From: Agelas oroides
Taxonomy: Eukaryota > Porifera > Demospongiae > Agelasida > Agelasidae
Direction of reading: 5' to 3'
Assembly (NCBI GenBank): GCA_949130485.1
Contig: OX422186.1
Span: forward strand, 1,095,313 to 1,159,312
DNA: 64,000 nucleotides
In this document: positions 822 through 64,000 of the stretch, one piece after another
How positions within the stretch are numbered: the first letter of the stretch is position 1
Layout: every line of letters starts with the position of its first letter
Notes under the pieces: model-generated
Databases searched by the model: none
What the model saw: only the letters and a program-made list of their open reading frames with translations
What the model was told of the DNA's origin: nothing
Translations under genes and position numbers: made by a program

Positions 822-8113
<7,292 letters not shown>

Positions 8114-41017: not shown

Positions 41018-41384
41018 GAGAAAAATATCTTCGACTACAACCATACAGCATAGCTAGTATTCAAAATAAGTATGATTACACTGTATATACACATTTTGCA
41101 TCCAACCTTAGCTCATGTTATGAAACAATTTGCTAAGATGGGACAGTTCACAATTTCCTGCACCACATTCAACTCTAAAAACCTCTGTGCTAAAAGGGAT
41201 GTTTCACTGACATGTGCAGTGTCTGTGCATATCAAAATCACTTGTTGCGCCTAACTTTCTCACACTTGTTGATAATGGGACTAACCGATATATCCTGAGA
41301 TTGGATGTCCATTGCACCCTGGCAATTACGTTATTCAGTACCCGTGTATGTGGATCTTTTTTTCATCTTGGTGTAATGATCAAC

Positions 41385-41761
41385 ACTGTATCTTCCCAAC
41401 GACAATTCTAGCGTCCCTAAGTTCAACGTCTTATTGTCCCAGCTTGGGATTTTTGTACACAATATATCATGTGAGTGTTCAGCCTTTCCTAAACATTGAG
41501 GCAGTTTGTCTACATATGCATAACTGCTACCATGTGACTAAACCATGACTCAATACACTCTCTATACTACCCAGCCCTGTTCCCAGATTTCCCTGTTTAA
41601 AATTGACTTTTTAGTAGCTAGCTCCAAAATCTCAGGTCAGCCTTCTGGGACTAGCAGTACATCCTTGAGAATAACACTTACAGCTATAAAAGGATCTTGC
41701 TTCTTAAAGAAACTATGCTTGTATAAGTTATCCCTCTGCTACACACAAGGTTCTTCTTGTG
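41385..41761 (+). promoter_or_regulatory. conserved 5' flank of copy A
   Basis: About 375 bp, from CTGTATCTTCCCAACGACAA through GTTCAGCCTTTCCTAAACAT to the start codon, recurs before copy B1 (from about 46787), in front of D (from about 57105, cut at 57231) and before the stub at 61450 (from about 61121). It therefore belongs to the duplicated unit and is the likely promoter region. Confidence 0.65.
41685..41693 (+). promoter_or_regulatory. TATA box of copy A
   Basis: TATAAAAGG lies 77 bp before the ATG at 41762. The same element at the same distance precedes copy B1 (47087). Confidence 0.7.
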
Positions 41762-44700
41762 ATGCTTTGTTCAGCTGTTCTACCACTTCTTGTGCTCATA
41801 GCTACTGTTCATGAGTGCAGGGCTGCTCACCACTACTATGTGACAGCAACCAATGGCTCAGACTGCCCTCTGACCTTTCCCTGCCATCCTCTGAACTATT
41901 ATGTGCAGAATGCCGAGTCATACTTTACTTCCAACACAGTGGTGGAGTTCCTCCCAGGACTGCATGAGCTCAACTACACTGGACATGTTTTTGTCACACT
42001 TGCAAGAAATCTTACTTTGATTGGCAGTGAATCTAATGTGAAACCCTCCACAAGATGTAGCCACTCTGACTCCATTGTGTTTTGTACAGACTACGCAGGG
42101 TTCTTCTTTGTAATGATCAGTGGCTTGAATATTGTCAACTTACACTTTTCCCACTGTGGTGCTGTATTATACTCTGACTCTTTCCCAAAACTGCCATTAA
42201 TTGATACTGCATTCCTTAAAGTATACATTGCTCTGGCCACGTGGCAGGTGCAGAATCTTGTTATTTCCAGGGTCACAATAGAGAAGAGCTATGGATTTGG
42301 GCTCTATGGAACAAGCATTTGGAACAGATCAGTGATAACTGACAGCTGTTTTATCAGTAACAATGAGTATGTTGGCAAGTATCAACGCTGCATTGATCCT
42401 GAATACCCTGCAAGCTGTACTGGTGGGAATCTTCGTCTGGCTTACTTGGACTTCCCCTTCCCAGGCACACCAGCCAATAACAGCCTAGAGATAAACAACT
42501 CCGAATTTAGGCGAGGGATTTCTACAATACAACAAGAGCCAAAATCAGGATTTGCAGGTGGATTAGAGATATTGGTTGGTGGTTTGGGTGGTCACGAAAT
42601 TCATATCATCATAAACAACACAGTTATTGCTGAAAACAGTGGGTTCATAGCTGGAAACATGTATATCAGCATTATGTATGGTGTAGATCACATTGCAATC
42701 AGGCTTGACAGATGTCACATTCACTCAGGCAATTTGACAAGTATTTCAGATCCTCGGTCATTTGCTACAGGACTTTTATGTGGTGTTACTGTTGTGAAGG
42801 AACATGCTGATGGGAACACAATGCCTGTGCATATATCCAACACAAGATTCATTTCTAACTATGGTGGCGCAGTAGCATTCTTTGTTGGTGGCAGGCGTAC
42901 TTACACTTGTAACAGCTCTGCATATATGATTTTTGTGGACAGATGTGAGTTTTCCAACAACTCTGCACATTTTGGGCATACTGCAATAAAGGCTGGAATG
43001 ATGTCTGATAATGTTAACCCTAGAGTTACTGTTCATGAAAGTGTACTCAAAGTGAGGCTAGTAATTCAAAATTCAACCTTTCACCACAATATTGAGTTGC
43101 CAAGTATTTCTTCACAAACAAGTGGTCTCCTTGTTTTTGTCCAGCTTCCAGAAGTTGTTATTGTAAATTGTAAACTTTATAGTAACACTGGATCACGTAC
43201 CATAGTTGTCTACAAATCCCGGATCATCTTCCAGGGCCAAGTTGTGTTCGAGAACAACACAAGCACCACAGATGGAGGAGCACTCCATCTTGATGAGAGC
43301 TCACTACTGCACTTCAAATCAAACACAAGTATTTTCTTCATCAAAAACAAGGCTTTACAAAGAGGGGGGGCAATCTATGTTGAAAACACAAAGGCAGATG
43401 ACAATTTGTATTACCTATTCTGTTTTTATGAGTTGGAGGACATGATGAAGTACCCTCAAACAAATGTCCAGCTGGTATTTGAGGGAAATCTTGCAGGAAT
43501 AGCAGGAGATTCTCTATATGGTGGACGGATTGACAAATGTATCTTGTTTCCAACTACATCACTAGCAAACCGAAACTTATTAATGGATGTGGAATTCAAG
43601 CAGAAAAATATACGTACCCTTATACTAGATCCAGCAGATGTGTTTGAATCTCTTTTCAACTTTACGGACAAAACTCCACAAATATCCTCAGACCCATTTC
43701 GAATATGCTTCTGTAGCAATGAAAGTGAACCAGACTTTGCTCTTGAGCAGTCCATTCAGAAAGAGGCCTATCCGGGACAAATGTTTTATGTAGAAGCTGT
43801 GGCAGTTGGTCAGTACAATGGAACAACACCAGGTGTAGTCCTTGCAAGAGCTGTCACAAGTAATACAACCAGCATACTAAGGCAGGTGCATTTGGCACAA
43901 GAAAGCAAACGCTCATGTACCAGGCTTCAGTATACAGTTTTCTCCAGTCAGGCATGTGAGGTAATTCAGTTAGTCCCTTCAGGAGTATCCAGAAATTTCT
44001 TCTTTGCTAACGTAAAAGTTACATTGCTTGCATGTCCACCTGGTTTTACACTTCAGAATGGCACTAGTAAGTGTGATTGTCACCCTCTGCTGAATGAATA
44101 TAATGTGACATGCAACATTGATAACCAAACATTAACTAAAGCAGACAGTGCGTGGATTTCACTCGATAAATCCCTTGCATCCGAAGTATTACTGCACCCA
44201 GAGTGTCCTTTTGACTACTGTAAAGTAGGAGCTGTAACATTTAAGCTCACTGAAAACCCAGACTTCCAGTGTGCTTTCAGTCACACTGGTGTGCTCTGTG
44301 GCGCATGCTTACCAGGGTTGAGTCTTGCCCTGGGAACCTCCAAGTGTCTGGAGTGTTCCAATGTCTGGCTTCTCCTTCTGCTTCCATTCGCAGCCGCAGG
44401 GCTGGCTCTTGTATTTGTATTACTAACTCTCAACCTCACAGTGTCCACAGGGACTATCAATGGGCTCATATTCTATGCAAACATTGTCAGAGCCAATCAT
44501 GCAGTGTTCTTCCCTCCTGGAGATCGAAGCTTCTTCTCCCTATTCATAGCCTGGCTGAACCTGGACCTTGGGGTAGAGACGTGTTTCTGGGACGGCCTGG
44601 ATGGCTATGCCAAGACCTGGCTTCAGTTTGTGTTCCCTGTCTACATCTGGGCGATTGTTGCCATCATCATCTGGCTAAGTAGGTGCTACGTGCTTGTTGC

Positions 44701-45568
44701 AAAGCTTTGTGGCTCACATACAGTTAAAGTATTGGCTACACTCTTTCTCCTCTCTTATGCCAAAGTGTTGCGAACTGTCATTACAGCTCTTTCATTTACT
44801 AGTCCTAGACTTCTGGATGGATCCACAATAACAGTTTGGCTATATGATGGCAATATTGACTATCTTGGTGTGAAGCACTCTTTCTTATTCTTCACGGCTC
44901 TTGTGTTTGCTGTTGGGTTTGTACTTCCCTTCACACTGCTGGTTCTGCTTGCTCCTTGCTTGCAAGCATGGTCTAACAAGCGCTGCTTCAGGTGGGTTCA
45001 CAGAATAAAACCTCTACTAGATGCTTACCAGGGTCCCTATAGAGACAAATTCAGGAGCTGGACTGGAGTGATGCTAGTTGTTAGAAATGTACTTTTTCTT
45101 TCATTTGCTGTAAATGGCCTGGGTGACCCAGATGTTAACCTGGCACTGATCACTACCATGGTGCTTGGTTTCATTCAAGCTTTCATGTGGCTCCCAGATA
45201 AGGTGTACAAGATATTGATTCTAAACATTCTTGAAGCGGTTTTCATTACAAAACTTGGAATTTTCTCAGCATGGACTATTTTCATACGTCACAACAATCC
45301 TGATCCAGTGAAAGGTCAAATGATTGCTGCCTACACAATCACAACAATCACCATCATCATTTTCATGGCCATAGTGTGTTACCACATTTGGATCGCTATC
45401 AAAACCTCACAAATAGTCAAGAATCTCACCAGGAAACCTCAGAGACAACAGGAAGGTGCTCAACAGGAAAACTCTATTGACGGAAGTGGCAATGCTGCTC
45501 AGCCTTTCCATGCTCCAACTATTACCTACATCAACATGAGTGAGCTGAGAGAGTCATTGCTGTCATAA
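41762..45568 (+). CDS. intact copy A: secreted-signal, beta-helix ectodomain, multi-pass membrane protein
   Basis: Single exon, 1,268 aa. A signal peptide (about 1-21, ending HECRA) leads to a long N-glycosylation-rich ectodomain whose repeats (ENNTSTTDGGALHLDE, KALQRGGAIYVEN, about 495-540) look like right-handed parallel beta-helix coils with the GGAI and FxxN motifs of Pmp-like repeats. A cysteine-rich juxtamembrane region follows (CPPGFTLQNGTSKCDCHP, HPECPFDYC, GVLCGACLPGLSLALG, to about 866). About 8 membrane helices follow, from WLLLLLPFAAAGLALVFVLL (868) to TITTITIIIFMAIVCYHIWI (near 1206). The cytosolic tail of about 55 residues ends TYINMSELRESLLS. Start: ATG 41762, with a TATA box 77 bp upstream; polyadenylation signal AATAAA at 45658. 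I know no function for this family. A cell-surface receptor or adhesion role is inference from architecture. Confidence 0.9.
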   Translation: MLCSAVLPLLVLIATVHECRAAHHYYVTATNGSDCPLTFPCHPLNYYVQNAESYFTSNTVVEFLPGLHELNYTGHVFVTLARNLTLIGSESNVKPSTRCSHSDSIVFCTDYAGFFFVMISGLNIVNLHFSHCGAVLYSDSFPKLPLIDTAFLKVYIALATWQVQNLVISRVTIEKSYGFGLYGTSIWNRSVITDSCFISNNEYVGKYQRCIDPEYPASCTGGNLRLAYLDFPFPGTPANNSLEINNSEFRRGISTIQQEPKSGFAGGLEILVGGLGGHEIHIIINNTVIAENSGFIAGNMYISIMYGVDHIAIRLDRCHIHSGNLTSISDPRSFATGLLCGVTVVKEHADGNTMPVHISNTRFISNYGGAVAFFVGGRRTYTCNSSAYMIFVDRCEFSNNSAHFGHTAIKAGMMSDNVNPRVTVHESVLKVRLVIQNSTFHHNIELPSISSQTSGLLVFVQLPEVVIVNCKLYSNTGSRTIVVYKSRIIFQGQVVFENNTSTTDGGALHLDESSLLHFKSNTSIFFIKNKALQRGGAIYVENTKADDNLYYLFCFYELEDMMKYPQTNVQLVFEGNLAGIAGDSLYGGRIDKCILFPTTSLANRNLLMDVEFKQKNIRTLILDPADVFESLFNFTDKTPQISSDPFRICFCSNESEPDFALEQSIQKEAYPGQMFYVEAVAVGQYNGTTPGVVLARAVTSNTTSILRQVHLAQESKRSCTRLQYTVFSSQACEVIQLVPSGVSRNFFFANVKVTLLACPPGFTLQNGTSKCDCHPLLNEYNVTCNIDNQTLTKADSAWISLDKSLASEVLLHPECPFDYCKVGAVTFKLTENPDFQCAFSHTGVLCGACLPGLSLALGTSKCLECSNVWLLLLLPFAAAGLALVFVLLTLNLTVSTGTINGLIFYANIVRANHAVFFPPGDRSFFSLFIAWLNLDLGVETCFWDGLDGYAKTWLQFVFPVYIWAIVAIIIWLSRCYVLVAKLCGSHTVKVLATLFLLSYAKVLRTVITALSFTSPRLLDGSTITVWLYDGNIDYLGVKHSFLFFTALVFAVGFVLPFTLLVLLAPCLQAWSNKRCFRWVHRIKPLLDAYQGPYRDKFRSWTGVMLVVRNVLFLSFAVNGLGDPDVNLALITTMVLGFIQAFMWLPDKVYKILILNILEAVFITKLGIFSAWTIFIRHNNPDPVKGQMIAAYTITTITIIIFMAIVCYHIWIAIKTSQIVKNLTRKPQRQQEGAQQENSIDGSGNAAQPFHAPTITYINMSELRESLLS

Positions 45569-45657
45569 GGGTCATGAGTCTGAGTCCCTGTTTACAACAA
45601 TCATCACGTATATTTTTAAGGTACCGAATTCACTACCAGCTTTGCATTGTTTTTGAT

Positions 45658-45663
45658 AATAAA
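45658..45663 (+). promoter_or_regulatory. polyadenylation signal of copy A
   Basis: AATAAA, 90 bp after the stop codon, within TTTTTGATAATAAACATTCAG; conserved after C (55518) and D (59587). Confidence 0.65.
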
Positions 45664-46657
45664 CATTCAGTAAGTAACTTTTGCAAACTCTTGTGTATCA
45701 TTGGGTAGTTAGTTGTCTCTGTTGTATAATTAGGAATGTAATTGAATTGTTTACTGCCATCTGGAAGAAGTATTGGAAGTGGACATGTGATTGCCAGTGC
45801 ATGATTGAGCGAATGAACACCGAGATGATTGGATAGAATTTGTGACTTTAGAGGCTAGTGGGAGGAGCTACTACATTGCAGGTTAAAAAAAATGTGACAA
45901 CATGTCAAAGTGGGGTAGTTAGTGGTATGAAGCTGGCAAGGAAGGTGCATGAAAGGAGGGAGAAAATTAAGAGAATATTGTAGAGCTAGAGGGTCTCAGG
46001 CATGAGTCAGTGTGTACTGTCGTTAGAATGGTAGATCTAATCTGAGTTCGGGAAATTTTAATCCAGTGGAAGCCAAGTTTTATATTTTCCACTGCATAAG
46101 GATGGTACATTGTTTGAGAGATGCAGCCATGCATTATATTGTCTTGGTCAGTTTGAAAGTGACTGATGTTGGACTTGTTATTTCCAGAAAGCAATTTCCC
46201 TTTTCCCAACACATGTCGTTTTGTACACAAAAACTTGATATAGTAGGAGTAGTTGTGTTTTAACAGCTCAAGTGCATATCACACTTTGGTAGACAGCCAG
46301 TCTCAGTGAAGAGCCAGCACATGTTTAAGAGTTGGTTCAACTCAGTGTGATGGCTAGCAATTATTCCCAGAAAGCTTTTATTTGTTTTGTACACAATAAA
46401 AAGAGCTTATTAATTGCTAGCATCTTCCAAACCACAATTTCAGTTGTTGTTTTTGTACATGTACAGGTTTTCCTAAACTTTATGAGTCCCAGATTGTACA
46501 TCAAGTTCTCAGTTTGTACATACATCCTCACCATGTGACAGTTAATAGCAAAACACCCATGTACAACTGTTTTACATGCAATATAATTATATTATTGATA
46601 CATAAACTGCTTGCTATTGGCTACAACATATCATCCTTCTGGGACTGCAAAATTGGT

Positions 46658-46688
46658 ATCTTCCCATGAAATTATTGCATGGGAAGAT
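46658..46688. promoter_or_regulatory. hairpin in the upstream flank of copy B1
   Basis: ATCTTCCCATG and CATGGGAAGAT pair over 11 bp around a 9-bp loop. Equivalent hairpins lie upstream of D (56958-56995) and of the E region (60935-60970), where the arms are longer. Function unknown. Confidence 0.5.
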
Positions 46689-47086
46689 AGACTGCTTCAC
46701 AAACTAAGGTTGTGTACAAGTGAGGCTCTCATAATGCTTTGTTGTGTTGACATTCCACATCTTGGCATAATGATCTAATGTGTCAACACTGCATCTTCCC
46801 AACGACAATTCTAGCGTCCCTAAGTTCAATGTCTTATTGTCTCAACATTTTTTGTACACAATATACCATGTGAGTGTTCAGCCTTTCCTAAACATTGAGG
46901 CAGTTTGTCTACATATGCATAACTGTTACCGTGTGACTAAACCATGACTCAATACACCCTCTATACTACCCAGCCCTGTTCCCAGATTAATTTTGCCTGT
47001 TTAAAATTGACTTTAGTAGCTAGCTCCAAAATCTCAGGTCATCCTTCTGGGACTAGCAGTACATCCTTGAGAATAACACTTACAGC

Positions 47087-47095
47087 TATAAAAGG
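47087..47095 (+). promoter_or_regulatory. TATA box of copy B1
   Basis: TATAAAAGG, 77 bp before the original ATG (47164), in a flank nearly identical to that of copy A. Confidence 0.65.
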
Positions 47096-47163
47096 ATCTT
47101 GCTTCTTAAAGAAACTATGCTTGTATAAGTTATCCCTCTGCTATACACAAGGTTCTTCTTGTG

Positions 47164-48250
47164 ATGCTTTGTTCAGCTGTTCTAACACTTCTTGGACTTA
47201 TAGCTACTGTTCATGAGTGCAGGGCTGCTTACCACAGCAACCAATGACTCAGACTGCCCTCGGACCTTTCCCTGCCATCCTCTGAACTACTATGTGCAGA
47301 ATGCTGCCTCATACTTTACTTCCAACACAGTGGTACAGTTCCTCCCAGGACTGCATGAGCTCAACTACACTGGACATGTTTATATTGCGTTTGCAAGAAA
47401 TCTTACTTTGATTGGCAGTGAATCTAATGTGAATACCTCCACAAAATGTAGCCACTCTGACTCCATTGTGTTTTGTACAGACTACGCGGGGTTTGTTTTT
47501 TGGATGATACGCGACTTAAAAATTGTGAATTTGCAGTTTACTCACTGTGGTGCTGCTTTATATTCTGAAGCTTTACCAGAAGTGTCAAAAGTATACTTTG
47601 CATTGGCTATTTTACAGGTGCAGAATCTTGTCATTTCCAGGGTCACAATAGAAAAGAGTTACGGATTTGGAGTATATGCAGTGAACATTTGGAACAGATC
47701 AGTGATAACTGACAGCTGTTTTATCAGTAACAATGAGTATGTTGGTAAGTACCAATGCTGCATTGATCCCAAATACCCTGCAACCTGTACTGGTGGAAAT
47801 CTTCGTCTCTCTTACATGGACTTCCCATTTCCAAGTACACCAGTTAATAGCAGCCTAGAGATATATAACTCAGAATTTCGGCGAGGAGTTTCCACAATAA
47901 AACCAGAACCTCAGTTGGGACTTGCAGGTGGGTTAGAAATAGTGGTTGGCATGTTGTTTGGTCATAACATTTACATCACCATCAACAACACAGTAATTGC
48001 TGAAAACAGTGGATTTATAGCTGGAAATGTGTATATCAGCCTTATGTTTGGTGTAGAACATGTTGCGATCAGGTTTGACAGATGTTACATTCACTCTGGA
48101 AGCAACTGGTTTGACAAGGTTATATTTGCTACAGGACTCACATGTGGGGTTTATTTTGTGAATGAACATTCTAATGGAAATGCAATACCCGTGCAAGGTA
48201 ATGTGGTTCTAGAAGTGTGTCTACATATGGCTACTATAGCGAATGAATGA
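47164..48250 (+). pseudogene. copy B1: N-terminal fragment of the beta-helix membrane protein
   Basis: The original ATG (47164) starts the usual signal peptide, but an 11-bp deletion after HECRAAYH shifts the frame and brings a stop within ten codons. The body frame stays open from an ATG at 47213 to 48250 (345 codons) and matches the first quarter of copy A with many amino-acid differences (for example SKVYFALAILQVQNL). Homology stops at about 48197, inside the sequence that reads MPVHISNTRF in copy A, next to a donor-like GTAATG. The cysteine-rich and membrane parts are missing. If translated from 47213 it would have no signal peptide. It is probably dead. Confidence 0.8.
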
Positions 48251-48975: not shown

Positions 48976-50196
48976 CAATGCACTACTATGTGACAGCAAC
49001 CAATGGCTCAGACTGCCCTCCGACCTTTCCCTGCCACCCTCTGAACTACTATGTGCAGACTTTGAACACAGTGGTAGAATCCTCCCAGGACTGCTAGAGT
49101 TCAACTTCACTCGACATGTCTTTTGACAAGCTTGTGAAAAATAGTAACTCCTGTATGAATATTTCGCAAGATGTTGCCACTCAGACTTCCTTTTGTTGTA
49201 CAAACAATTCAGGTTTTTTGGGCAAATTTGTGAGTGATTTGAAGAGTATGAATTTGCACTTTGCAGTGCTCATTATTTAAAAAAAAATCATACCAGTACA
49301 TGTTTTTAACTTGGGCTATTTTACCAGATGTACAGAATCCGTAGCTACATGGTGTCTCTCTTATGAGCCAATGTGCAGAATGTTTGATGTATACAGCTAT
49401 TGTCAGAGTCATAGCTGACATGTGATTAGTTACTAAAGCTCAGAACACAACTCCTTTCCCCAAACGTGTTATGTTTTGTACACAAGTTTGCTTCCACCAT
49501 CCTATAAGCCAAACTTTCTTTTGTATGTGTTTTTCAACTTTGAGTTAAAGTTCCCATATCATGCTATCATTTTGTTCATTAATACATTGCATACAAAAAA
49601 TGAGCTGTTTAATGAAAATACAATGCCCGTGCATATCTCAAACACAAGGTTCATTGCAAACTATGGAGATGCAGCAACATTTGCTATTTATGGCGGGAGT
49701 AGTTGCACTTGTAGCAGCTCTGCATATTAGACCGCCATGAAATAATTTGGCACATTTGGACACACTGGATTAACAGCTGCAATGATGTCCGATAAAGATG
49801 TCCCTATAGTTACTGCTCAAGAACCTGTACTCAAAGTGACATCTGCATTAATTCTGAACATTCTTGAAACGATTTTTATTATAAAACTTGGGAATTATTT
49901 CAGCATGGACAATTTTCATACATCAAAAGAATTCCAATCCAGTAAATGGCCAAATGATTGCTGCCTACACAATCACAACAATCACCATCATCATTTTCAT
50001 GGCCATAGTATGTCACCACATTTGGATCACTGTCAAAACCTCACAAATAGTCAAGAATCTCACCAGGAAACCACAGAGACAACAGGGAGGTGCTCAACAA
50101 GAAAATAAAGTGGAAATACTGCTCAAACTACCCATGCGACATTTATGTGTTACATACACCAATATGAATAAGCTAAGAGAGCCATTGTGGCTCTAA
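48976..50196 (+). pseudogene. copy B2: strongly decayed relic
   Basis: Scattered pieces in the correct order: start of the ectodomain (48976-49270, CACTACTATGTGACAGCAAC onward, with frameshifts), a short bit near 49318 (GGCTATTTTACCAGATGTAC), a mid-ectodomain piece (49618-49830) and the last membrane helix with the tail (49841-50196, TITTITIIIFMAIVCHHIWI, ending YTNMNKLREPLWL). Large internal deletions and many indels leave no usable frame. It is the oldest-looking member of the array. Confidence 0.85.
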
Positions 50197-50429
50197 GATG
50201 TGATACTTCACAAAATATTAGGATGTGCTACATGTTTTGTTACCAACTTGGTTGCGTTTGTAGACCATAATACTAGTATAAATTTTCTAAGTAGCAAACT
50301 CCTGTTAGATATTTGTATTTTAATAATGGGTGTTGCAATTTTTAAAACTGTCATTGAGTCATGATAAAACCATCTACAAGAGTAACCATAGGAAGAAAGT
50401 TCTGGAAGCATGTATACATGACTACAAAT

Positions 50430-50636
50430 AAATGAATGAATGAATGAATGAATGAAGGAATGAATAAAAGAATGGATGAATGAATAAAAGAATGAATGAA
50501 TGAATGAATGAATGAATGAATGAATGAATGATTGAATAAATGAGTGAATGAAAGCATGGATGAATGAGTGAATGAATGAATGAATGAATGAATGAATGAA
50601 TGAATGAATGAATGAATGAATGAACGAATGAAAGAA
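50430..50636. repeat. (GAAT)n microsatellite
   Basis: About 50 tetranucleotide units with AAAG, GGAT and GATT interruptions. Apparent Ser/Phe/Ile/His frames across it are artefacts. Confidence 0.95.
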
Positions 50637-51665
50637 AAAGTATAATGACATATACTTTAGGCTGATGGAGGACATGCAAAGTGCAACTGTAGAAGTTCCT
50701 GGTCAATCGCATTACTGTGTGCAGCTAACTCCCTCTACTAGTGTAGGCTAGTGAGCAAAGCTTTAATGTATTACAATTCACAGCAGGTTTTATCATTTCT
50801 GCCTACCTAGCTACAAATCGAACAGGATTAATTGACCTAGCTATATGAAGCTGGCAAGGAAGAAAACCAAAGAAGAAAGGAGGAGCTGGAAGCAGGAAGT
50901 ACAGAAGGTGGTACAGTAGATAGTATGACAGCTTTGAGTCAATACATGTGCAGACTGTTTGGACAAGATGCAACAGTTGTCTTTGTCAGTGTAATGGCTG
51001 TTATGTGATTGGGTATTCCCAGAAAGCAACTTCCTCTTTCCTAACATAATTTGTTTTGATTACAATTGTTGATAGCATATTTCTAAACTGCAATTTTAAA
51101 CCAAACTCACTTTATCTTGTACATAATTTTCCTAAATTTTGAGTCCAAGGTTCTATGTCAGTTTGTGTCTCATTAAACTTTTAGTTACTGGTAGAATGGT
51201 TGTTGCAAATTGCCACAACTGCAAGGCTGCGGGGAATACTAGCCTAAAGCACACAGCAAGCTTGCTGAGTGCAAGGAGGGAGAAAAGGGAGAGCACTATA
51301 GATAGTGTTAGAGTCAGTGTACATATGATAACTCGCATCCCCAGAACTACGGTTTCATAGACCCTAGTCAGTATCTCACAGATAACCTCAAGTTTGAGCC
51401 CAAAGCTGCAACCCAGCACCCCCCTCCCTCCCTTCCCCCATATAGATAATCTTACAATCTGTCTTACTAGCATAACACAACCCAGGGACTATGAATGAAT
51501 CTGAGTATACCTCACTCCCAGGCTTTGGGAACAAGGCTACATTGCAGGAGGCCTTGCCACATTTGGGGAGTTTTCCACTAATTTCCCCGTTTGTCATTAC
51601 ATGAATAAGTTGATGTGTCCCTTGTGTCCCTGTCGTACAATAGAATTGACACCAACTTGTACAGT

Positions 51666-51674
51666 TATAAAAGG
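51666..51674 (+). promoter_or_regulatory. TATA-like element too close to the copy C start
   Basis: TATAAAAGG lies only 12 bp before the first usable ATG (51678), against 63-77 bp in A, B1 and E. About 65 bp of leader including the original ATG are missing, so normal initiation at 51678 is doubtful. Confidence 0.5.
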
Positions 51675-51677
51675 AGA

Positions 51678-54600
51678 ATGCTTCTTGGGCTCATAGCCAC
51701 TGTTCATGAGTGCAGGGCTGCTCACCACTACTATGTGACAGCAACCAATGGCTCAGACTGCCCTCCGACCTTTCCCTGCCACCCTCTGAACTATTATGTA
51801 CAGAATGCTGCTTCATACTTTACTTCCAACACAGTGGTAGAGTTCCTCCCAGGACTGCATGAGCTCAACTACACTGGACATGTTTATATTGAATTTGCAA
51901 GAAATCTTACTTTGATTGGCAGTGATTCCCATGTGAATACCTCCACGAGATGTAGCCACTCAGATTCCATTGTGTTTTGTACAGACTATTCGGGGTTCTT
52001 TTTTGGAATGATCAGGAGCTTGAAGATCATGAATTTGGATTTTACACACTGTGGTGCTGTTTTGTATCCTGAATCTCTTCCAAAACTGCCATCAGTTGAC
52101 ACTACAATTTTTAAAGTATACATTGCTCTAGTCATGTTTCATATACAGAATCTTGTCATTTCCAGGGTCACAATAGAGAAGAGCTATGGATATGGACTAA
52201 TTGGAACAAACATTTGGAACAGATCAGTGATAACTGACAGCTGTTTTATTAGTAACAATGAGTATGTTGGCAAGTATAAACGCTGCATTGATCCTGAATA
52301 CCCTGCAAGCTGTATTGGTGGAAATGTTCGTCTGGCTTACATAGATATCCCATTGCCAGGTGTACCAGCTAATAACAGCCTAGAGATAAAGAACTCTGAA
52401 TTTCGACGAGGAATTTCTAATATACAACTGCAACCACAGTTTGGACTTGCAGGTGGATTAGAAATACTCGTTAGTGTCTGGCTTGATCATAACATTGTCA
52501 ACAACACAGTAATTGCTGAAAATGGTGGATTTATTGGTGGAAACATGGCTATCAGCATTATGTATGGTGCAGAACATGTTGCAATCAGGCTTGACAGATG
52601 TTACATTCACTCAGGCAACTTGACAAATTCTTTACCAACTCGGCCATTTGCTACAGGACTTTTATGTGGAATTAACTTTGTGAACGAACACTCTGATGGG
52701 AACACAACACCTGTACACATCTCAAATACAAAATTTATTTCTAACTATAATGCAGTGACATTCTTTTTTGGTGGCAGGCGTACTTACACTTGTAACAGCT
52801 CTGCATATATGATTTTGGTGGACAGATGTGAGTTTTCCAATAATGCTGCACATTTTGGGCATACTGCAATAAAGGCTGGAATGATGTCTGATAATGCTAA
52901 CTCTAGAGTTACTGTTCATGAAACTGTACTCAAAGTAAGGCTTGTAATTCAAAATTCAACCTTTTACCACAACTATAAGTTGCCAAGACATTCTTCAGAA
53001 ACTAGTAATCTTATTGATTTTTCCCAGCTTCCAGAAGTTATTATCGCAAATTCTAAATTTTATAACAACACTGGATCACGAACCATAGTTTTGTTCAAAT
53101 CCCGGATCATCTTCAAGGACCAAGTTGTGTTCGAGAACAACACAAGCACCACAGATGGAGGAGCACTCCATCTTGATGATAGCTCACTACTGCACTTCAA
53201 AACAGACACAAAGATATTGTTTATCAACAACAGAGCTTCACAACGAGGAGGAGCAATCTATGTTGAAAACACCAAGACAAATGACTATTCCTCATTCTGC
53301 TTCTATGAGCTTGATGATGTGCTGAAATATTCTCAGGCAAATGTTCAACTTGTGTTTGAGGGAAATCTTGCAGGGGTAGCAGGAGACGCAGTCTATGGAG
53401 GGAATGTAGACAGTTGTATTTTGCTTCCAAATGGAGTTGGGCCATTCTCCTTAAACATAGCAGACTTTATGACAAATAATACGCGCAAAGTGTCCTTGAA
53501 TCGAGGTGGAGTGTTTGAAGCACTCTTCAACTTCACAGACAAAGCTCCTTCACATTCACTAATATCCTCAGACCCATTTCGAATATGTTTTTGTAGCAAT
53601 GAGAGTGAACCAGATTTTGCAGTAGAACAGTCCATTCAGAAAGAGGCCTATCCGGGACAAATGTTTTATAGAAGCTGTGGCAGTTGGGGAGCATAATGGA
53701 ACAACACCAGGTGTAGTCCTTGCAAGAGCTGTCACAAGTAATACAACCAGCATACTAAGGGAGGTGCATTTGGCACAAGAAAGCAAACGCTCATGTACCA
53801 GGCTTCAATATTCCATTTCATCCATCAGTGAGTATGAAGTGATTTATTTAGTCCCTGCAGGAGTATCGAGACGTTTCTTCTTTGCGGACATCAATGTCAC
53901 CTTGCTGGAATGTCCACCTGGTTTTGCACTCCAGAATGCCACTAGTGAGTGTGATTGTCACCCTATGTTGAACCAATACAATGTGACATGCAACATTGAT
54001 AACCGAACATTAACCAAAGCAGACACTGCTTGGATTTCACTCGATAAATCCCTCACATCTGGAGTAATACTGCACCCTGAGTGTCCTTTTGACTACTGTA
54101 AAGTAGGAGCTGTAACATTCAAGCTCACTGAAAACCCAGACTTCCAGTGTGCCTTCAGTCATACCGGTGTGCTCTGTGGAGCATGCTTACCAGGACTCAG
54201 TCTAGCTCTGGGAACCTCCAGGTGTCTGGAGTGTTCCAATGTCTGGCTTCTCCTTCTGCTTCCATTTGCAGCTGCAGGATTAGCTCTTGTATTTGTATTA
54301 CTTACCCTCAACCTCACAGTATCCACAGGGACTATCAATGGGCTCATATTCTATGCAAACATTGTCAGAGCCAATCATGCAGTGTTCTTCCCACCTGGAG
54401 ATCGAAGCTTCTTCTCTCTATTTATAGCCTGGCTGAACCTGGACCTTGGGGTAGAGACATGTTTCTGGAATGGTCTCGATGGCTATGCCAAGACATGGCT
54501 TCAGTTTGTGTTCCCTGTCTACATCTGGGTGATTGTTGCCATTATCATCTGGCTAAGTAGGCGCTATGTGCTTGTTGCAAAGCTTTGTGGCTCACACACT

Positions 54601-55443
54601 GTTAAAGTATTGGCTACACTCTTCCTTCTCTCTTATGCCAAAGTTCTGCGAACTGTCATCACAGCTCTTTCATTTACTAGTCCTAGACTTCTGGATGGAT
54701 CCACAATAACGGTTTGGCTATATGATGGCAATGTTGACTATCTTGGTGTGAAGCATGCCTTCTTATTCTTCACGGCTCTTGTGTTTGCTGTTGGGTTTGT
54801 ACTTCCCTTCACACTGCTGGTTCTGCTTGCTCCTTGCTTGCAAGCATGGTCTAACAAGCGCTTCTTCAGGTGGGTTCACAGGATAAAACCACTACTAGAT
54901 GCTTACCAGGGTCCTTACACAGACAAATTCAGGTGCTGGACAGGAGTGATGCTAGTTGTTCGAAATGTACTTTTCCTTTCATTCGCTGCAAATGGCCTCG
55001 GTGACCCAGACATTAACCTAGCACTAATCACAAGCATAGTACTTGGTCTTCAAAATTTCATGTGGCTCTCAGGCATGGTGTATAAGGTCTTGATTCTAAA
55101 CATTCTTGAAGCCTTTTTTACTTTAAAACTTGGAATTTTCTCAGCATGGACACTTTTTATACGTCGCAACAATCCTGATCCAGTAAAAGGCCAAATGATT
55201 GCTGCCTACACAATCACAACAATCACCGTCATCATTTTCATGGCCATAGTATGCTACCACATTTGGATCGCTATCAAAACCTCACAAACTGTTAAGAATC
55301 TCACCAGGAAACCCCAAAGACAACAGGAAGGTGCTCAACAGGAAAACCCTTTTGATGGAAGTGGCAATGCTGCTCAGACTGCCCATGCTCCAACTATTAC
55401 CTACATCAACATGAGTGAGCTGAGAGAGTCATTACTGTCATAA
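51678..55443 (+). pseudogene. copy C: nearly intact, broken by one 2-bp deletion
   Basis: From the first usable ATG (51678, a shortened signal peptide MLLGLIATVHECRA) the frame is open through the ectodomain to about 53696. A GT is missing between 53669 and 53670 (TTTTATAGAAG against TTTTATGTAGAAG in A and D). The next frame then continues without further damage through the cysteine-rich region and all membrane helices to TYINMSELRESLLS and the stop at 55441. The promoter side is also damaged, as the TATA box is only 12 bp from the ATG. The rest is as well kept as in copy A, so loss was recent or the deletion is an assembly error. AATAAA at 55518. Confidence 0.85.
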
Positions 55444-57231
55444 GGGTCATGAGTCCCTGTTTACAACAATCATCACATATTGTTAAGCTACCAAATTCAC
55501 TACCAGTTGTTTGTGATAATAAAAATTCGGTAAGTAACTTTTGCAAACTCTTGTGTATCATTGGGTAGTTAGTTTTCGTTGTATAATTAGAAATGTAATT
55601 GAATTGTTTTCTGCCATCTGGAAGTGGACATGTGATTGCCAGTGCATGATTGAACGAATGAACAATCAGATGATTGGATACAATTTGTGACTTTAGAGGC
55701 TAGTGGGAGGAACTACTACATTGGAGGTATTAAAGAAAATGTGACAACATGTCCAACTGGTGTGTATTTAACCGTATGAAACTGGCAAGGAAGAAAAAAG
55801 AAGTGTATGAAAGGAGGGAGAAAATGAGGAGTATATTACAGAGCTAGAACGTCTCAGGCATGCATGAGCCATTGTGTACTGTCATTAGAGTGGTAGATCT
55901 AATCTAGTATAAAATTGAGTTCAGACCCAGTGGAAGCCAGTTTTATATTTTCTACCACTGTATTAGAATAAGGATGGTAGCTACATTGTTTAAGAGATGC
56001 AGCCATGCATTGTCTTGGTCAGTTTGAAGTGACTGGTGTTGGACTTGTTATTTCCAGAGAACAAATTGCCTTTTCCCAACGTAATTGTATTGTTTTGTAC
56101 ACCAAATTAATGTTTAACTAGGACCAAAATTAAAAATGTTTCTTTTGTACATGTTAGCAGGGTTTATTTCTTACCATGTGACTGATTACAAATGCTGAGA
56201 CTCACTTGCAGTTTCTGTAGCTACATCTTTACTTACATGCTATACTATTATTGCTTGCATGAATTCACATGGTTTCTATTGGTTATGTACCATCACAATT
56301 CATGACTAAATAGAACAAAATCATCCCATGCAGTTACAAAAGATCACAGATTTGTATATTCTTCACCAAGCAGTGCGTGCATACATACCTCAGCTAAGAT
56401 TGCAGTCAGGCTTAACAGAACATATACTCAGCTATAATGCCCAAAACTTAAATATCTTTAACATCTTCAACACCAACTGCTACAGGACTCATCTGTTTTG
56501 AACACGCTAACAATGCCTGCATGTGTATACCTCAAACACACAGTTTATTTCCACTATGGTTCTAATGTTCAAACTTTATATTGTAGGAGTAGTTGTGTTT
56601 TAACAGCTCTGCATATCACACTTTGGTAGACAGCTAGTCTCAGTGAAGAGCCAGCACATGTTTAAGAGTCTGTCCAACTCAGTGTGATGGCTAGGATTAT
56701 TCCCAGAAAGTTACCTTTTATTTGTTTTGTACACAATAAAAAGAGATTGTTAATTGCTAGCATCTCCCAAACCACGTACAGGTTTTCCTAAACTTTGAGT
56801 CCCAGATTGTACATCAAGTTCTCAGTTTGTGCATACAACCTCACCATGTGACAGTTAATAGCAAAACACCTATGTATACATGCTATATTATAAATGCATA
56901 AACTGCTTGCTATTGGCTACAACATATCATCCTTCTGGGACTACAAAACAAAATCGGAATCTTCCCATGCGATTATATAATTGCATGGGAAGATTATTTT
57001 ACAAAGACTGCTTCACAAACTAAGGTTGTGTACAAGTGAGGCTCTCATAATGCTTTGTTGTGTTGACAGTCCACATCTTGGCGTAATCATTCAATGTGTC
57101 AACACTGCATCTTCCCAACGACAATTCTAGCGTCCCTAAGCTCAATGTTTCATTGTCTCAACATTTTTTGTACACAATATACCATGTGAGTGTTCAGCCT
57201 TTCCTAAACATTGAGGCAGTTTGTCTACCTA
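55444..57231. other. spacer between C and D
   Basis: 3' flank of C and 5' flank of D. AATAAA at 55518-55523. The hairpin AATCTTCCCATGC...GCATGGGAAGATT is at 56958-56995. The conserved 5' flank runs from about 57105 to the deletion junction at 57231. A diverged ectodomain scrap may lie near 56470-56560 (CTACAGGACTCATCTG, CTCAAACACACAGTTTATTT). Confidence 0.6.
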
Positions 57232-59493
57232 TTGCACTTTGAACCAGACACACGAGTATTATTCACCAACAACAGAGCTTTACAAAGAGGAGGAGCAATT
57301 TATGTAGACGGCACAAAGATAGAAAGCAATGTTCCACATTGTTTTTATGAGCTGGATGAGGTGCTGAAATATTCTCAGAAGAACATCCAGCTTGTATTTG
57401 AGGGAAACGTTGCAAAAATAGCAGGAGATGCTCTATATGGTGGGCGAGTTGATAGATGTAGCTTGCTTCCAAATGCATTTCCACTAGGCCCTTATTTCAA
57501 AAATAGAGTAGACTTTGAAGGGAAAGATTTACGTGAAGTGTTCTTGAATCCAGATGAGGTGTTTGAATCACTCTTCAACTTCACAGACAAAGCTCGTTCA
57601 CATTCATTAATATCCTCAGACCCATTTCGAATAAGTTTCTGTAGCAATGAAAGTGAACCAGACTTTGCTGTAGAACAGTCCATTCAGAAAGAGGCCTATC
57701 CGGGACAAATGTTTTATGTAGAAGCTGTGGCAGTTGGTCAGCACAATGGAACAACACCAGGTGTAGTCCTTGCAAGAGCTGTCACAAGTAATACAACTCG
57801 TATACTAAGGCAGGTGCATTTGGCACAAGAAAGCAAACGCTCATGTACCAGACTTCAGTATTCTATTTCATCCATCAGTGAGTATGAGGTGATTCAGTTG
57901 TTCCCTGCAGGAGTATCCAGACATTTCTTCTTTGCTGACATCAATGTCACATTGCTGGAATGTCCACCTGGTTTTGCACTCCAGAATGCCACTAGCAAGT
58001 GTGATTGTCACCCTCTGTTGAACCAATACAATGTGACGTGCAACATTGATAATCAAACATTAACTAAAGCAGACACAGCCTGGATTTCACTTGACAAGTC
58101 ACCAGCATCCGAAGTAATACTGCACCCAGAGTGCCCTTTTGACTATTGTAAAGTGGGAACTGTAGTATTTAAGCTCACTGAAAACCCAGACTTCCAGTGT
58201 GCTTTCAGTCGCACTGGTGTGCTCTGTGGTGCATGCTTACCAGGGCTTAGTCTAGCTCTGGGAACCTCTAGGTGTCTGGATTGTTCCAATGTCTGGCTTC
58301 TCCTTCTGCTTCCATTTGCAGCTGCAGGACTGGCTCTTGTGTTTCTATTGCTTACTCTCAACCTCACAGTGTCCACAGGGACTATCAATGGGCTCATATT
58401 CTATGCAAACATTGTCAGAGCCAATCATGCAGTGTTCTTCCCTCCTGGAGATCGAAGCCTCTTCTCTCTATTCATAGCCTGGCTGAACTTGGACCTTGGG
58501 GTAGAGACATGTTTCTGGGATGGCCTGGATGGCTATGCAAAAACCTGGCTTCAGTTTATGTTTCCAGTCTACATCTGGGTGATTGTTACAATCATTATCT
58601 TGCTAAGCAGGCGCTATGTACTCGCTGCAAAACTGTGTGGCTCACATACAGTTAAAGTATTGGCTACACTCTTTCTCCTTTCTTATGCCAAAGTGTTGCG
58701 AACTGTCATCACAGCTCTTTCATTTACTAGTCCTAGACTTCTGGATGGATCCACAATAACGGTTTGGTTGTATGATGGCAATGTTGACTATCTTGGTGTG
58801 AAGCATGCCTTCTTATTCTTCACAGCTCTTGTGTTTGCTGTTGGGTTTGTACTTCCCTTTACACTACTGGTTCTGCTTGCTCCTTGCTTACAAGCATGGT
58901 CTAACAAGCACTTCTTCAGATGGGTTCACAGGATAAAACCACTACTAGATGCTTACCAGGGTCCCTATAAAGACAATTTTAGGTGCTGGACTGGAGTGAT
59001 GCTAGTTGTTCGAAATGTACTTTTTCTTTCATTTGCTGCAAATGGCCTCGGTGACCCAGACGTTAACCTGGTATTGATCACTACCATAGTACTTGGTCTC
59101 CAAAGTTTCATGTGGCTCTCAGGCAGGGTATATAAGTTAATGATTCTTGACGTCCTTGAAACTATTTTTACTGTGAAACTTGGAATTTTCTCAGCATGGA
59201 CTATTTTCATACGTCACAACAATCCTGATCCAGTGAAAGGTCAAATGATTGCTGCCTACACAATCACAACAATCACCATCATCATTTTCATGGTCATAGT
59301 ATGTTACCACATTTGGATCGCTATCAAAACCTCACAAATAGTCAAGAATCTCACCAGGAAACCTCAGAGACAACAGGAAGGTGCTCAACAGGAAAACTCT
59401 ATTGATGGAAGTGGCAATGCTGCTCACACTGCCCATGCTCCAACTATTACCTACATCAACATGAATGAGCTGAGAGAGTCATTGCTGTCATAA
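57232..59493 (+). pseudogene. copy D: 5'-truncated, membrane half intact
   Basis: The conserved promoter flank (GAGGCAGTTTGTCTACCTAT) runs straight into mid-ectodomain coding sequence (TTGCACTTTGAACCAGACAC), so about 1.6 kb of coding sequence plus TATA box and signal peptide were lost. A CTAT match at both sides suggests microhomology joining. Downstream the frame is open for about 754 codons: last beta-helix coils (RALQRGGAIYVDGTK), cysteine-rich region, about 8 helices and a tail ending TYINMNELRESLLS. No ATG lies near the junction and no signal peptide remains, so it probably does not make a normal protein, although an internally started membrane protein cannot be excluded. AATAAA at 59587. 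Confidence 0.85.
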
Positions 59494-61449
59494 GGGTCAT
59501 GAGTCTGAGTCCCTGTTTACAACAATCATCACATAATTATATTTTTAAGGTACCGAATTCACTACCATCTTTGCATTGTTTTTGATAATAAAAATTCAGT
59601 AAGTAACTTTCGCAAACTCTTGTGTATCATTGGGTATATAGTTCGTTTTCTCTGCTGTATAATTAGAAATGGAATTGAATTGTCTGGAAGATCTATTGGA
59701 AGTGGACATGTGATTGATTGCAAGTGCATGATTGTGCAAATGAACAATCAGATGATTGGATACAATTTGTGACTTTAGAGGCTAGTGGGAGGAACTACTA
59801 CATTAAAGAAAATGTGACAACATGTCCAACTGATGTGTATTTAACCATATGAAACTGACAAGGAAGAGAAAAGAAGTGCATGAAAGGAGGGAGAAAATGA
59901 AGAATATATTGCAGAGCTAGAGCGTCTCAGGCATGAGCCAGTGTGTACTATCATTAGAATGGTAGATCTAATCTAGTAAAAAATTGAGTTCGGACCCAGT
60001 GGAAGCCAGATTATATATTTTCTACCACTGTATCAGAATAAGGATGGTACTTACATTGTTTAAGAGATGCAGCCATGCATTATATTGTCTTGGTCAGTTT
60101 GAAGTGACTGATGTTGGACTTGTTATTTCCAGAAAACAATTCCCAACATAATTATACACTGCAAAATTAATGAAGCAAAATTAAAAATATTTCTTTTGTA
60201 CATGTTAGCAGGGTTTATTTCTTACCATGTGACTGATTACAAATACCGAGACTCACTTGCAGTATCTGTAGTCATCTTGCATGAATTCACATGGTTTCTA
60301 TTGGTTATGTACCATCACAATTGATGTCTAAATAGAACAAAATCATCCCATGCAGTTACAAAAGAAGATCACAGATTTGCATATTCTTCTCCAACCAGTG
60401 TGTGCATGCGTACCTCAGCTAAGATTGCAGTCAGGCATGCACTCAGCTAAAATGCCCAAAACTTCAATATCTTCAACATCTTCTGCTGCAGGACTCATCT
60501 GCTTTGTGAATGAACACACTAACAATGCCTGCATGTGTATACCTCAAACACACAGTTAATTTCTGACTATGGTTGTAATGTTCAAACTTTATATAGTTGT
60601 GTTTTAACAGCTCGAGTGGATATCACACTTTGGTAGACAGCTAGTCTCAGTGAAATAAGAGCCAGCACATGTTTAACAGTCTGTCCAACTCAGTGTGATG
60701 GCTAGGATTATTCCCAAAAAGTTACCTTTTATTCGTTTTGTACACAATAAGTACAGGTTTTCCTAAACTTTGAGTCCAAGATTGTACATCACGTTCTCAG
60801 TTTGTACATACAACCTCACCGTGTGACAGTTAATAGCAAAACACCCATGTATACATGCTATATTATAAATGCATGAACTGCTTGCTATTGGCTACAACAT
60901 ATCATCCTTCTGGGACTACATATCCAAAATTGGTATCTTCCCATGCGATTATATAATTGCATGGGAAGATTATTTAATCAAGACTGTTTCACAAACTAAG
61001 GTTGTGTACAAGTGAGGCTCTCCTAATGCTTTGTTGCGTTGACATTCCACATCCTGGCGTAATGATCCTTCCTGGTGACCATAGGTTTTTTCATCTTGGT
61101 GTAATGATCCAATGTATCAACACTGTATCTTCCCAACGACAATTCTAGCGTCCCTAAGTTCAATGTTTTATTGTCTCAACATTTTTAGTACACAATATAC
61201 CATGTGAGTGTCCAGCCTTTCCTAAACATTGAGGCAGTTTGTCTACCTATGCATAACTGCTACCATGTGACTAAATCATCATTAAGCACACTCTCTATAC
61301 TGTTCCCAGATTTCCCTGTTTAAAAGTCATCCTTCTGGGACTAGCAGTACGTCTTTGAGAATAATCACTTACAGCTCTAAAAGGACCTTGTTCCTTAAAG
61401 AAACTATGCTTGTATAAGTCATTCCTCTGCTACACACAAGGTTCTTGTG
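59494..61449. other. spacer between D and the E region
   Basis: 3' flank of D (AATAAA at 59587-59592) closely similar to that after C, then diverged ectodomain scraps near 60485-60565 (GGACTCATCTGCTTTGTGAA, ACACACAGTTAATTTCTGAC), the hairpin at 60935-60970, and the conserved 5' flank from about 61121. Confidence 0.6.
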
Positions 61450-61551
61450 ATGCTTTGTTCAGCTGTTCTAACACTCCTAGTACTCATAGCTACTGTTCAT
61501 GAGTGCAGAGCTGCTCGTCACTACTATATAGAGCTAGGTCTCAAAACATGA
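61450..61551 (+). pseudogene. stub: promoter and signal peptide only
   Basis: The conserved 5' flank (TATA changed to CTCTAAAAGG near 61376) leads to ATG 61450 and a 33-codon frame MLCSAVLTLLVLIATVHECR that diverges after HYY and stops at 61549. This is a separate truncated copy 0.5 kb before copy E. Confidence 0.75.
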
Positions 61552-61874
61552 GATATTGTGTATAGATGGTCTGAGAAATGCAGCTATACATTGTCTTGGT
61601 CAGTGTGAAGTGACTTGTATTTGGACTGGTTATTCCCAGCAAGCAATACAGATGTGTACCTTTTTCAAAACATATGTATTGTTTTGTATGCAAGGTTGCT
61701 GCTAGCATCCCACAGTTTCAAATCTTTCTTTTGTGTAGGTCACTAAAGATTTGAATTCACAGTTCCACATCCTGTTTTAGATTTGTAAATGGGAATACTG
61801 ACAGTCACAAAACACACCCTTCATGTCACTGTTCTGGAATTCAGAACAAAACAAAACACATCATCCCATGTGCT

Positions 61875-61883
61875 TATAAAAGG
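61875..61883 (+). promoter_or_regulatory. TATA box of copy E
   Basis: TATAAAAGG, 63 bp before the first ATG (61938). The flank differs from that of A and B1, so copy E may be regulated differently. Confidence 0.6.
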
Positions 61884-61937
61884 AGAGTTGTTTGCACATC
61901 CTCCTCCGAAGACTGTGCTGCTACACATAAGGTTATC

Positions 61938-64000
61938 ATGATGCTTTGTTCGACTGTTCTACCACTCTTGGTGATCATAGCTACTGTTCATGAGTGCAGG
62001 GCTGCTCACCACTACTATGTGACAGCAACCAATGGCTCAGACTGCCCTCCGACCTTTCCCTGCCACCCTCTGAACTACTATGTGCAGAATGCTGCCTCAT
62101 ACTTTACTTCCAACACAGTGGTAGAGTTCCTCCCAGGACTGCATGAGCTCAACTACACTGGACATGTCTTTATTTTGCTTGCTAGAAATCTTACTTTGAT
62201 TGGCAGTCACTCTCATATGAACATATCCACAAGATGTAGTCACTCTGGCTCCATTGTGTTTTGTACAGACTATGCGGGGTTCTTCTTTGGGTTTATCAGT
62301 GGCTTGAACATTATGAATTTACACTTTGCCCACTGTGGTACTTCATTATTGCCTGACTCGTTCCCAAAACTGTCATTAATTGACACTGCATCCCTTATTG
62401 CTCTGGGCATGTTTCAGGTGCAGAATCTTGTCATTTCCAGGGTCACAATAGAGAAGAGCTATGGATTTGGACTGTTTGCATCAAACATTTGGAACAGATC
62501 AGTGATAACTGACAGCTGTTTTATCAGTAACAATGAGTATGTTGGCAAGTACCAACGCTGCATTGATCCTGAATATCCTGCAAGCTGTACTGGCGGAAAT
62601 TTCTGTCTGACATACTTGGACTTGCCCTTCCCAGGCATACCAGCCAATAACAGCCTAGAGATAAACAACTCAAAATTTCTGCGAGGGATTTCTACAATAC
62701 AGCCAGAACCACACTCAGGCTTTGCAGGTGGGTTAGAGATAGTGGTTGGTGTTTTGTTTGGTCATAACATTTACATCACCATCAACAACACAGTAGTGGC
62801 TGAAAACAGTGGGTTCATAGGAGGAAATGTGTTTATCAGTCTTCTGTTTGGTGTAGAACATGTTACGATCAGGTTTGACAGATGTCACATTCACTCTGGA
62901 AGCCAATGGTTTGACAAGGTTATATCTGCTACAGGACTCATATGTGGGGTTCATTTTGTGAATGAACATTCCAATGGAAACTCAATGCCCGTGCATATCT
63001 CAAACACAGAATTTGTTTCTAACTATGGTGGTGCAATGACGTTTAGTTTTGGTGGCAGAAGTAGTTGTGTTTGTAACAACTCTGCATATCAGATTTTGAT
63101 AGATAGTTGTGAATTCCGCAATAACTCAGCACAAATTGGATACTCTGGATTAGCTGTTGTGATGATATCTGATAAATTTAACGCCAGAGTTACTGTTCAA
63201 GAAGCTGTACTCAAAGTGAGGCTTGTAATTCAAAATTCAACCTTTCACCACAACTATAAGTTGCAAACAGTTTCTCCACAGAATGTTGATGTCATTTGGT
63301 TCTACCAGCTTCCAGAAGTTGAAATTATAAATTCCACATTTTACAGCAATACTGGGTCACGAACCATAATGATCTCTAAATCAAAGATCATCTTTCGAGG
63401 CCAGGTAGTATTTGAGAACAACACAAGCACCACAGATGGAGGAGCACTCCATCTTGATGAGAGCTCACTATTGTACTTTGAACCACACACACGGGTAATA
63501 TTCACAAGCAACAGAGCTTCACAACGAGGAGGAGCAATTTATGTAGATGACACAAAGATAGAAAGCAACGCTCAATTTTGTTTTTATGAGCTGGATGAGG
63601 TGCTGAAATATTCCCAGAAAAATATACAGCTTGTATTTGAGGGAAACGTTGCAAAAATAGCGGGAGATGCTCTATATGGTGGGCAAGTTGATAGATGTAA
63701 CTTGCTTCCAAATGGAATTCCACAAGGGCCATATTTTGTCAATAAAGTAGACCTCGTTGACAAGAACATGCGAGAATGGTTCTCAAATCCAGATGATGTG
63801 TTTAAATCACTCTTCAATTTCACAGACAAAGCTCGTTCACATTCACTAATATCCTCAGACCCGTTTCGAATAAGTTTCTGTAGCAATGAAAGTGAACCAG
63901 ACTTTGCTGTAGAACAGTCCATTCAGAAAGAGGCCTATCCGGGACAAATGTTTTATATAGAAGCTGTGGCAGTTGGTCAGTACAATGGAACAACACCAGG
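61938..64000 (+). CDS. copy E: beta-helix multi-pass membrane protein, open to the window edge
   Basis: I read this frame codon by codon from ATG 61938 to the window end (687 codons) and found no stop or frameshift. It begins MMLCSTVLPLLVIIATVHEC (signal peptide), HHYYVTATNGSDCPPTFPCH, then the beta-helix ectodomain (FENNTSTTDGGALHLDESS, ASQRGGAIYVDD) and the conserved block EPDFAVEQSIQKEAYPGQMF. It ends in the window within AVGQYNGTTPG, before the cysteine-rich and membrane parts. Ectodomain residues differ from copy A in many places (for example FQVQNL against WQVQNL, and a FIGGNVFISLLFGVEHVTIR block), while the flanks of that region agree closely. Its late ectodomain resembles copy D (TKIESN, LKYSQKNIQLVFEGNVAKI), suggesting recent exchange between D and E. 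Confidence 0.88.
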   Translation, partial: MMLCSTVLPLLVIIATVHECRAAHHYYVTATNGSDCPPTFPCHPLNYYVQNAASYFTSNTVVEFLPGLHELNYTGHVFILLARNLTLIGSHSHMNISTRCSHSGSIVFCTDYAGFFFGFISGLNIMNLHFAHCGTSLLPDSFPKLSLIDTASLIALGMFQVQNLVISRVTIEKSYGFGLFASNIWNRSVITDSCFISNNEYVGKYQRCIDPEYPASCTGGNFCLTYLDLPFPGIPANNSLEINNSKFLRGISTIQPEPHSGFAGGLEIVVGVLFGHNIYITINNTVVAENSGFIGGNVFISLLFGVEHVTIRFDRCHIHSGSQWFDKVISATGLICGVHFVNEHSNGNSMPVHISNTEFVSNYGGAMTFSFGGRSSCVCNNSAYQILIDSCEFRNNSAQIGYSGLAVVMISDKFNARVTVQEAVLKVRLVIQNSTFHHNYKLQTVSPQNVDVIWFYQLPEVEIINSTFYSNTGSRTIMISKSKIIFRGQVVFENNTSTTDGGALHLDESSLLYFEPHTRVIFTSNRASQRGGAIYVDDTKIESNAQFCFYELDEVLKYSQKNIQLVFEGNVAKIAGDALYGGQVDRCNLLPNGIPQGPYFVNKVDLVDKNMREWFSNPDDVFKSLFNFTDKARSHSLISSDPFRISFCSNESEPDFAVEQSIQKEAYPGQMFYIEAVAVGQYNGTTP

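Follow-up and report, generated by a model that had tools for sequence, protein, structure and literature searches.

Early-branching animals are not known to have adaptive immunity, and it is an open question how they distinguish microbes, symbionts and one another; the genes described here form a strong and directly testable candidate family for such a role. They were met as a cluster of single-exon genes in the genome of Agelas oroides, in a stretch of 64,000 nucleotides (the window; contig C4, positions 1095313-1159312), and the question is what they encode, how far the family extends and what its products could do. The genome searched comprised 259.3 Mb in 141 contigs.

A sequence-only reading had described at least seven head-to-tail copies or pieces of one family in the window (A, B1, B2, C, D, a stub and E) with duplicated flanks, and tblastn with copy A recovered all of them, every one on the forward strand (Table 1). 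Only copy A is complete within the window, and copy E is intact once the flanking sequence is added; B1, B2, C, D and the stub are broken, and no A-type 5' end or upstream flank was found at copy C. Beyond the window lie a remnant (71354-72081) and a further intact copy, G (72699-76514). A tblastn search with 12 family members turned up no further member in 313,201 contiguous bases, composed of the window with 9.9 kb before and 239 kb after it, of which 5,000 bases are N.

Table 1. Features of the gene array. Positions are those of the window; residues of copy A are numbered with the GTG at 41759 as residue 1; TM, transmembrane helix.
Feature	Position	Strand	tblastn match of copy A	Basis
Copy A upstream flank, with TATA-like box (TATAAAA, 41685-41691, by eye)	41380..41761	+		sequence; flank comparison
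Copy A, intact single-exon gene from the ATG at 41762, 1268 aa	41762..45568	+	41759-45565	open frame; genome search, no stops
A ectodomain: beta-helix, Pmp-type repeats, ~residues 24-583	41828..43507	+		
A cysteine-rich neck, mostly beta, ~residues 584-868	43508..44362	+		AlphaFold2
A membrane domain: eight predicted transmembrane helices, residues 869-1216	44363..45406	+		AlphaFold2; charge alternation
Highly conserved segment GTINGLIFYANIV...IAWLNLDLGxETC, residues 891-948, between TM1 and TM2	44429..44602	+		
C-terminal tail motif LRESLL of A	45545..45562	+		motif class in homologue tails
Copy B1: flank and residues 1-357, truncated near residue 357; frame shifts after ~residue 25	46783..48195	+	47161-48193	
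Copy B2: gutted remnant, residues 25-131, 353-432, 1158-1267	48981..50187	+	48981-50187	tblastn
Copy C: residues 10-1269, broken by one 2-base deletion near 53669	51681..55440	+	51681-55440	tblastn, flank comparison
Copy D: duplicated flank (56571-57232) joined to residues 516-1269, without the first ~515 codons	56571..59493	+	57229-59490	tblastn
Stub: A-type upstream flank and residues 1-28	61086..61530	+	61447-61530	
Copy E, first 687 codons	61938..64000	+	61938-63998	intact past the window end, 61938-65735

The duplication of the flanks was borne out as well. Upstream, A and B1 are 94% identical, A and the stub 81%, and E and G 93%, 138 bases of A's upstream sequence recur at D with 90% identity, and the 3' flanks of A and C and of A and D share 82-83% identity. 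Two upstream types can be told apart, one in A, B1, the stub and part of D and another in E and G, each with a TATA-like box (by eye) ~60-80 bases before the ATG. Open frames and tblastn support the single-exon structure of the copies, and the broken copies, remnants and uneven divergence support their turnover. Between B2 and C, a minisatellite (50208-50675) reads by eye as FIHS repeats on the reverse strand; it could favour unequal exchange.

Elsewhere in the window, a tandem minisatellite (19572-20313), open in several frames, encodes a protein repeat of 11 letters, and a fragment of a glycosyl hydrolase family 16 protein is found at 3160-3732 (+, E 5e-6). The pattern ATGNNNNNNTATAAAGCNGG, often read as ATGCGCGAGTATAAAGCAGG, gave 149 genome matches versus 2 for its reversed control (e.g. 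C4:1274906) and is probably part of an interspersed repeat. Telomere repeats, (CCCTAA)n, were present at 11 of the 20 contig starts read.

The tandem array thus stood as first described, and the family proved far larger than its seven copies: the codon pattern for AWxNLD[LF]G matched 390 times in the genome and that for NGLIFY[AV]NI 121 times, with 0 matches for the controls. Scoring the best 37 of 1281 candidates from a genome search with A yielded 31 rows outside this array, none with an internal stop and 30 with open frames of more than 1000 residues. In the search with P0111 (best 35 of 1315 candidates scored), 0 of 50 rows had an internal stop; these stop-free rows are the best-scoring loci, from which the intact share among all 390 motif copies cannot be read off. 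For the first 100 of the 390 copies, 43 of 61 places on contig C1 and 19 of 28 on C2 had a neighbour within 30 kb, versus 6.3 and 1.7 at random. Other dense clusters, richer in motif copies than that of the window, were seen at C1:22.56-22.75 Mb, C1:30.0-31.9 Mb, C2:25.0-25.5 Mb and C3:0.47-1.1 Mb.

Many dispersed intronless copies, some of them broken, might be expected of mobile-element cargo or relics spread by transposition without a host role, and a hAT-type transposase (35997-38639, +; 880-residue open frame; DUF4371 E 9e-26, Dimer_Tnp_hAT E 9e-11) lies 2.7 kb upstream of the array. This origin appears very improbable to us, since the copies are tandem rather than scattered, their duplicated flanks carry TATA-like boxes, the best-scoring rows lack internal stops and selection is purifying: among A, E and G, dN/dS was 0.35-0.39 overall, 0.43-0.45 for residues 301-640 and 0.17-0.20 for the membrane part. 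It was below 1 in every segment tested in these three copies, with no sign of positive selection.

A full-length query gave 1024 homologous 90% clusters among 7991 scored, and a membrane-part profile gave at least 5194 among 7995. Among the matches listed, several contigs, told apart by their equal lengths, apparently bear two to four family members each, and homologue lengths reach 1839 residues; in P0128 the additional length sits in the ectodomain. A scan that requires exact conserved peptides confirmed no relative among genomes from 84,980 prokaryote species, nor was one confirmed in the viral sequence collection, and no account of the family appeared among the results listed by full-text literature searches. 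Sequence, domain and text searches met no characterised family with a known function, in keeping with the earlier description of these proteins as uncharacterised. The family is real, very large and apparently undescribed.

Inspection of copy A agreed with the architecture first proposed for it. Its Pmp-like repeats score above cut-off (PF02415, 33.2 bits, cut-off 20.6; TIGR01376, 32.9 bits, cut-off 15); in the distant members P0031 and P0099 they fall below the Pfam cut-off, and they are unlisted for P0083 and P0111. The signal peptide was called from hydropathy only. AlphaFold2 supported the beta-helix ectodomain, the cysteine-rich neck and eight helices (pLDDT 86.5 and pTM 0.84 for the membrane domain), so that neither a different ectodomain fold nor fewer than about five helices appeared. 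Of the 14 cysteines that are invariant in the family alignment, 13 lie in the neck, and the proteins are likely to contain disulphides. N-glycosylation sequons are abundant in the beta-helix (21 vs 8.8), which is probably glycosylated.

The core of the membrane domain has many invariant positions in the family alignment, and this part is 45-94% identical to that of A family-wide. Residues 891-948 (GTINGLIFYANI, AWLNLDLGxETC) rank with the best-conserved parts of the family's proteins, and the helices are broken there in the AlphaFold2 model. Charges (K+R/D+E per sequence, 87 sequences) were read as inside for TM2-3 (1.49/0.03), TM4-5 (7.02/2.06), TM6-7 (1.61/0.06) and the start of the tail (2.41/0.51), and as outside for the stretch before TM2 (0.14/2.93), TM3-4 (1.52/2.43), TM5-6 (0.09/0.70) and TM7-8 (0.57/1.07). 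With the ectodomain outside, TM1 running inward and TM2 starting outside, residues 891-948 must cross once as a discontinuous element; charge and model together suggest an N-out/C-in topology with nine crossings, this element included.

The NGLIFY-type core was present in 111 of the 120 listed homologues, and 92 of these 111 carry a tail of the class [LYFV][RQ][EK][PSTAQ][LVAMD] within 45 residues of the end, versus 1.3% of shuffled tails; this expression was set after inspecting the misses of a narrower one, which matched 72 of 121. The commonest tails among the 92 matches are LREPLL (45) and LRESLL (25), and the 19 core-bearing homologues without the motif include truncated proteins and one LRECLL. 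A trafficking role of the tail is only a guess, since an acidic dileucine-like pattern fits just 13 of the 111.

Pfam (filters on) returned no model for the membrane part of A at E up to 10 and no 7tm family in A, which also had no autotransporter family match. Foldseek found no convincing PDB match for the membrane part; GPCR chains, among the 50 matches listed, reached E values of at least 0.72 and TM scores of at most 0.23, and in place of a GPCR seven-helix bundle the model shows eight helices and the broken segment. In BFVD the top three matches all come from Megaviridae (Foldseek E 0.019-0.062, probability 0.98-1.00, TM 0.36-0.52) and include A0A5J6VHI1, a protein that carries the name 'Transient receptor potential ion channel' (E 0.019, probability 1.00, TM 0.46, rmsd 10.9, 12% identity). 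This match is a lead toward a channel and not membership, the relation being unproven. The broken, highly conserved membrane segment may be pore-loop-like, and large tandem single-exon gene families are typical of chemoreceptors. The products could accordingly be chemosensory or mechanosensory channels, with a membrane domain whose relatives would be the TRP-like proteins found in protists and giant viruses, and with the beta-helix acting as sensor or tether, a possibility that we consider rather unlikely.

Lyases, epimerases and glycosidases are among the solved structures closest in fold to the beta-helix, as would suit membrane-anchored glycan-processing enzymes. None of the 41 columns conserved at 90% or more in residues 24-590 (87 sequences) is D, E, K or R, and one is H, which makes an enzymatic ectodomain unlikely; we give such enzymes hardly any weight.

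Silent divergence is uneven along the genes. Among A, E and G, dS was 0.51-0.64 in residues 301-640 and 0.13-0.23 in the membrane part, and the same contrast is seen in four-fold sites (differing sites 28/89 vs 24/261 for A/E, p 2.9e-6; 28/94 vs 38/257 for A/G, p 0.003; 26/93 vs 40/263 for E/G, p 0.008), with segment limits picked after the dN/dS and silent-distance results. In residues 24-300, 0.14-0.15 of four-fold sites differ, about as in the neck and membrane part, so that a plain split into a variable outside and a constant inside would oversimplify. Loops are no richer in variable sites than strands (0.47 vs 0.49). Codon bias could lower silent divergence.

Between A and E, the silent distance starts at 0.50 and drops to 0.05 near alignment column 660; the two blocks that follow give 0.29 and 0.23, and from there to column 1260 it stays at 0.06-0.17. 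The two genes are 94-97% identical from gene base 2401 to 3600, and their own upstream and downstream flanks do not match each other, except that ~90 bases of A's 3' flank resemble E's 5' flank. A recent whole-gene duplication would not leave such a pattern. Over residues 301-640, A has 78-80% identity to P0003-P0005 and only 59% to E, E is 78% identical to P0006, and G is 92.5% identical to P0007. In the membrane part, identity is 95.5% for A/E and 93.2% for A/P0004, and the A+E node has a support of only 0.88 in the membrane-part tree (deeper node 0.03). P0004 and P0005 share 98.9% in the membrane part and 87.8% in the helix. Judging from their divergence, P0003-P0009 probably come from other species. 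We read this pattern as old ectodomain types with conversion of C-terminal halves between some copies, gene conversion being the probable cause of the alike halves; the case rests on A and E, since G groups with P0007 in both parts.

Ectodomain types with close relatives in other assemblies, together with the tandem layout, broken copies and uneven divergence, would also suit allorecognition molecules whose ectodomain types are compared between individuals. Such a role seems improbable, as the 390 motif copies are spread over many contigs rather than in one linked locus and dN/dS is below 1; the self/non-self layout suggested earlier is no better supported than microbe recognition or chemosensation.

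On balance, we favour the view that the array is one cluster of a large surface-protein family that joins a variable ligand-binding beta-helix to a common output. The models are most simply read as a binding ectodomain on a conserved membrane domain, and the receptor, adhesion or recognition role put forward in the sequence-only reading stays putative and is the best inference, its premises of fold, membrane architecture, single exon and copy turnover having held. The proteins of these single-exon genes, polytopic and probably N-out/C-in, would sit at the cell surface, where the variable beta-helix would bind a ligand; a glycan is the likeliest, or some other polymer on the surface of microbes, symbionts or other cells. 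Through the cysteine-rich neck the beta-helix would be coupled to the membrane domain, which is much better conserved than the rest and would end in a short cytosolic motif, and different ectodomains would thereby feed one common kind of output, be it a flux of ions or lipids, a signal or the uptake of whatever particle is bound. The sources of diversity would be duplication in tandem, a beta-helix that grows and diverges, and copy loss, with conversion keeping the C-terminal halves of some neighbours alike.

More tentatively, the family may represent a major and so far undescribed class of recognition receptors in animals, with hundreds of intronless genes per genome. In each, an evolvable beta-helix that reads glycans would be joined to a strongly conserved signalling or channel domain with nine crossings, conversion would keep the output modules alike, and ectodomain types would be maintained across species. 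The membrane domain is in addition a candidate for a membrane fold that has no recognised relative among solved structures and that giant viruses may share.

Among known systems, chlamydial Pmp autotransporters share with A the GGA[ILV]/FxxN-type repeats and the modelled beta-helix, but the C-terminal part of A models as an eight-TM helical domain and not as a beta-barrel translocator. The beta-helices that handle polysaccharides (tailspikes, AlgE, PL6, RbmB) have the same fold as A's ectodomain, whereas the present family has no highly conserved acidic or basic residue there and is joined to a membrane domain, for which Megaviridae A0A5J6VHI1 is the best viral-library structural match. The nearest eukaryotic analogue met in print seems to be the trichomonad Pmps, an expanded set of Pmp-repeat surface proteins that raise adhesion and whose cytoplasmic tails often carry endocytic or trafficking motifs, NPx[YWF] (PMC6701047). 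They resemble A in repeats, family expansion and tails, and differ in their NPx[YWF] motifs and in having one membrane span near the C-terminus in place of the eight TM helices modelled for A; the available portions of that report describe no polytopic domain for them. Large, partly individual-specific recognition families of sponges (NLR, SRCR, C-type lectin, GPCR and TIR) have been counted by Pfam domains (PMC8242945). The membrane domain of A, unlike these, matches no Pfam model, so Pfam-based screens would not class A as a receptor, and receptor counts that rely on domains would register its beta-helix at most. If the receptor-class reading is true, the family would amount to a repertoire for innate recognition that has escaped domain-based surveys.
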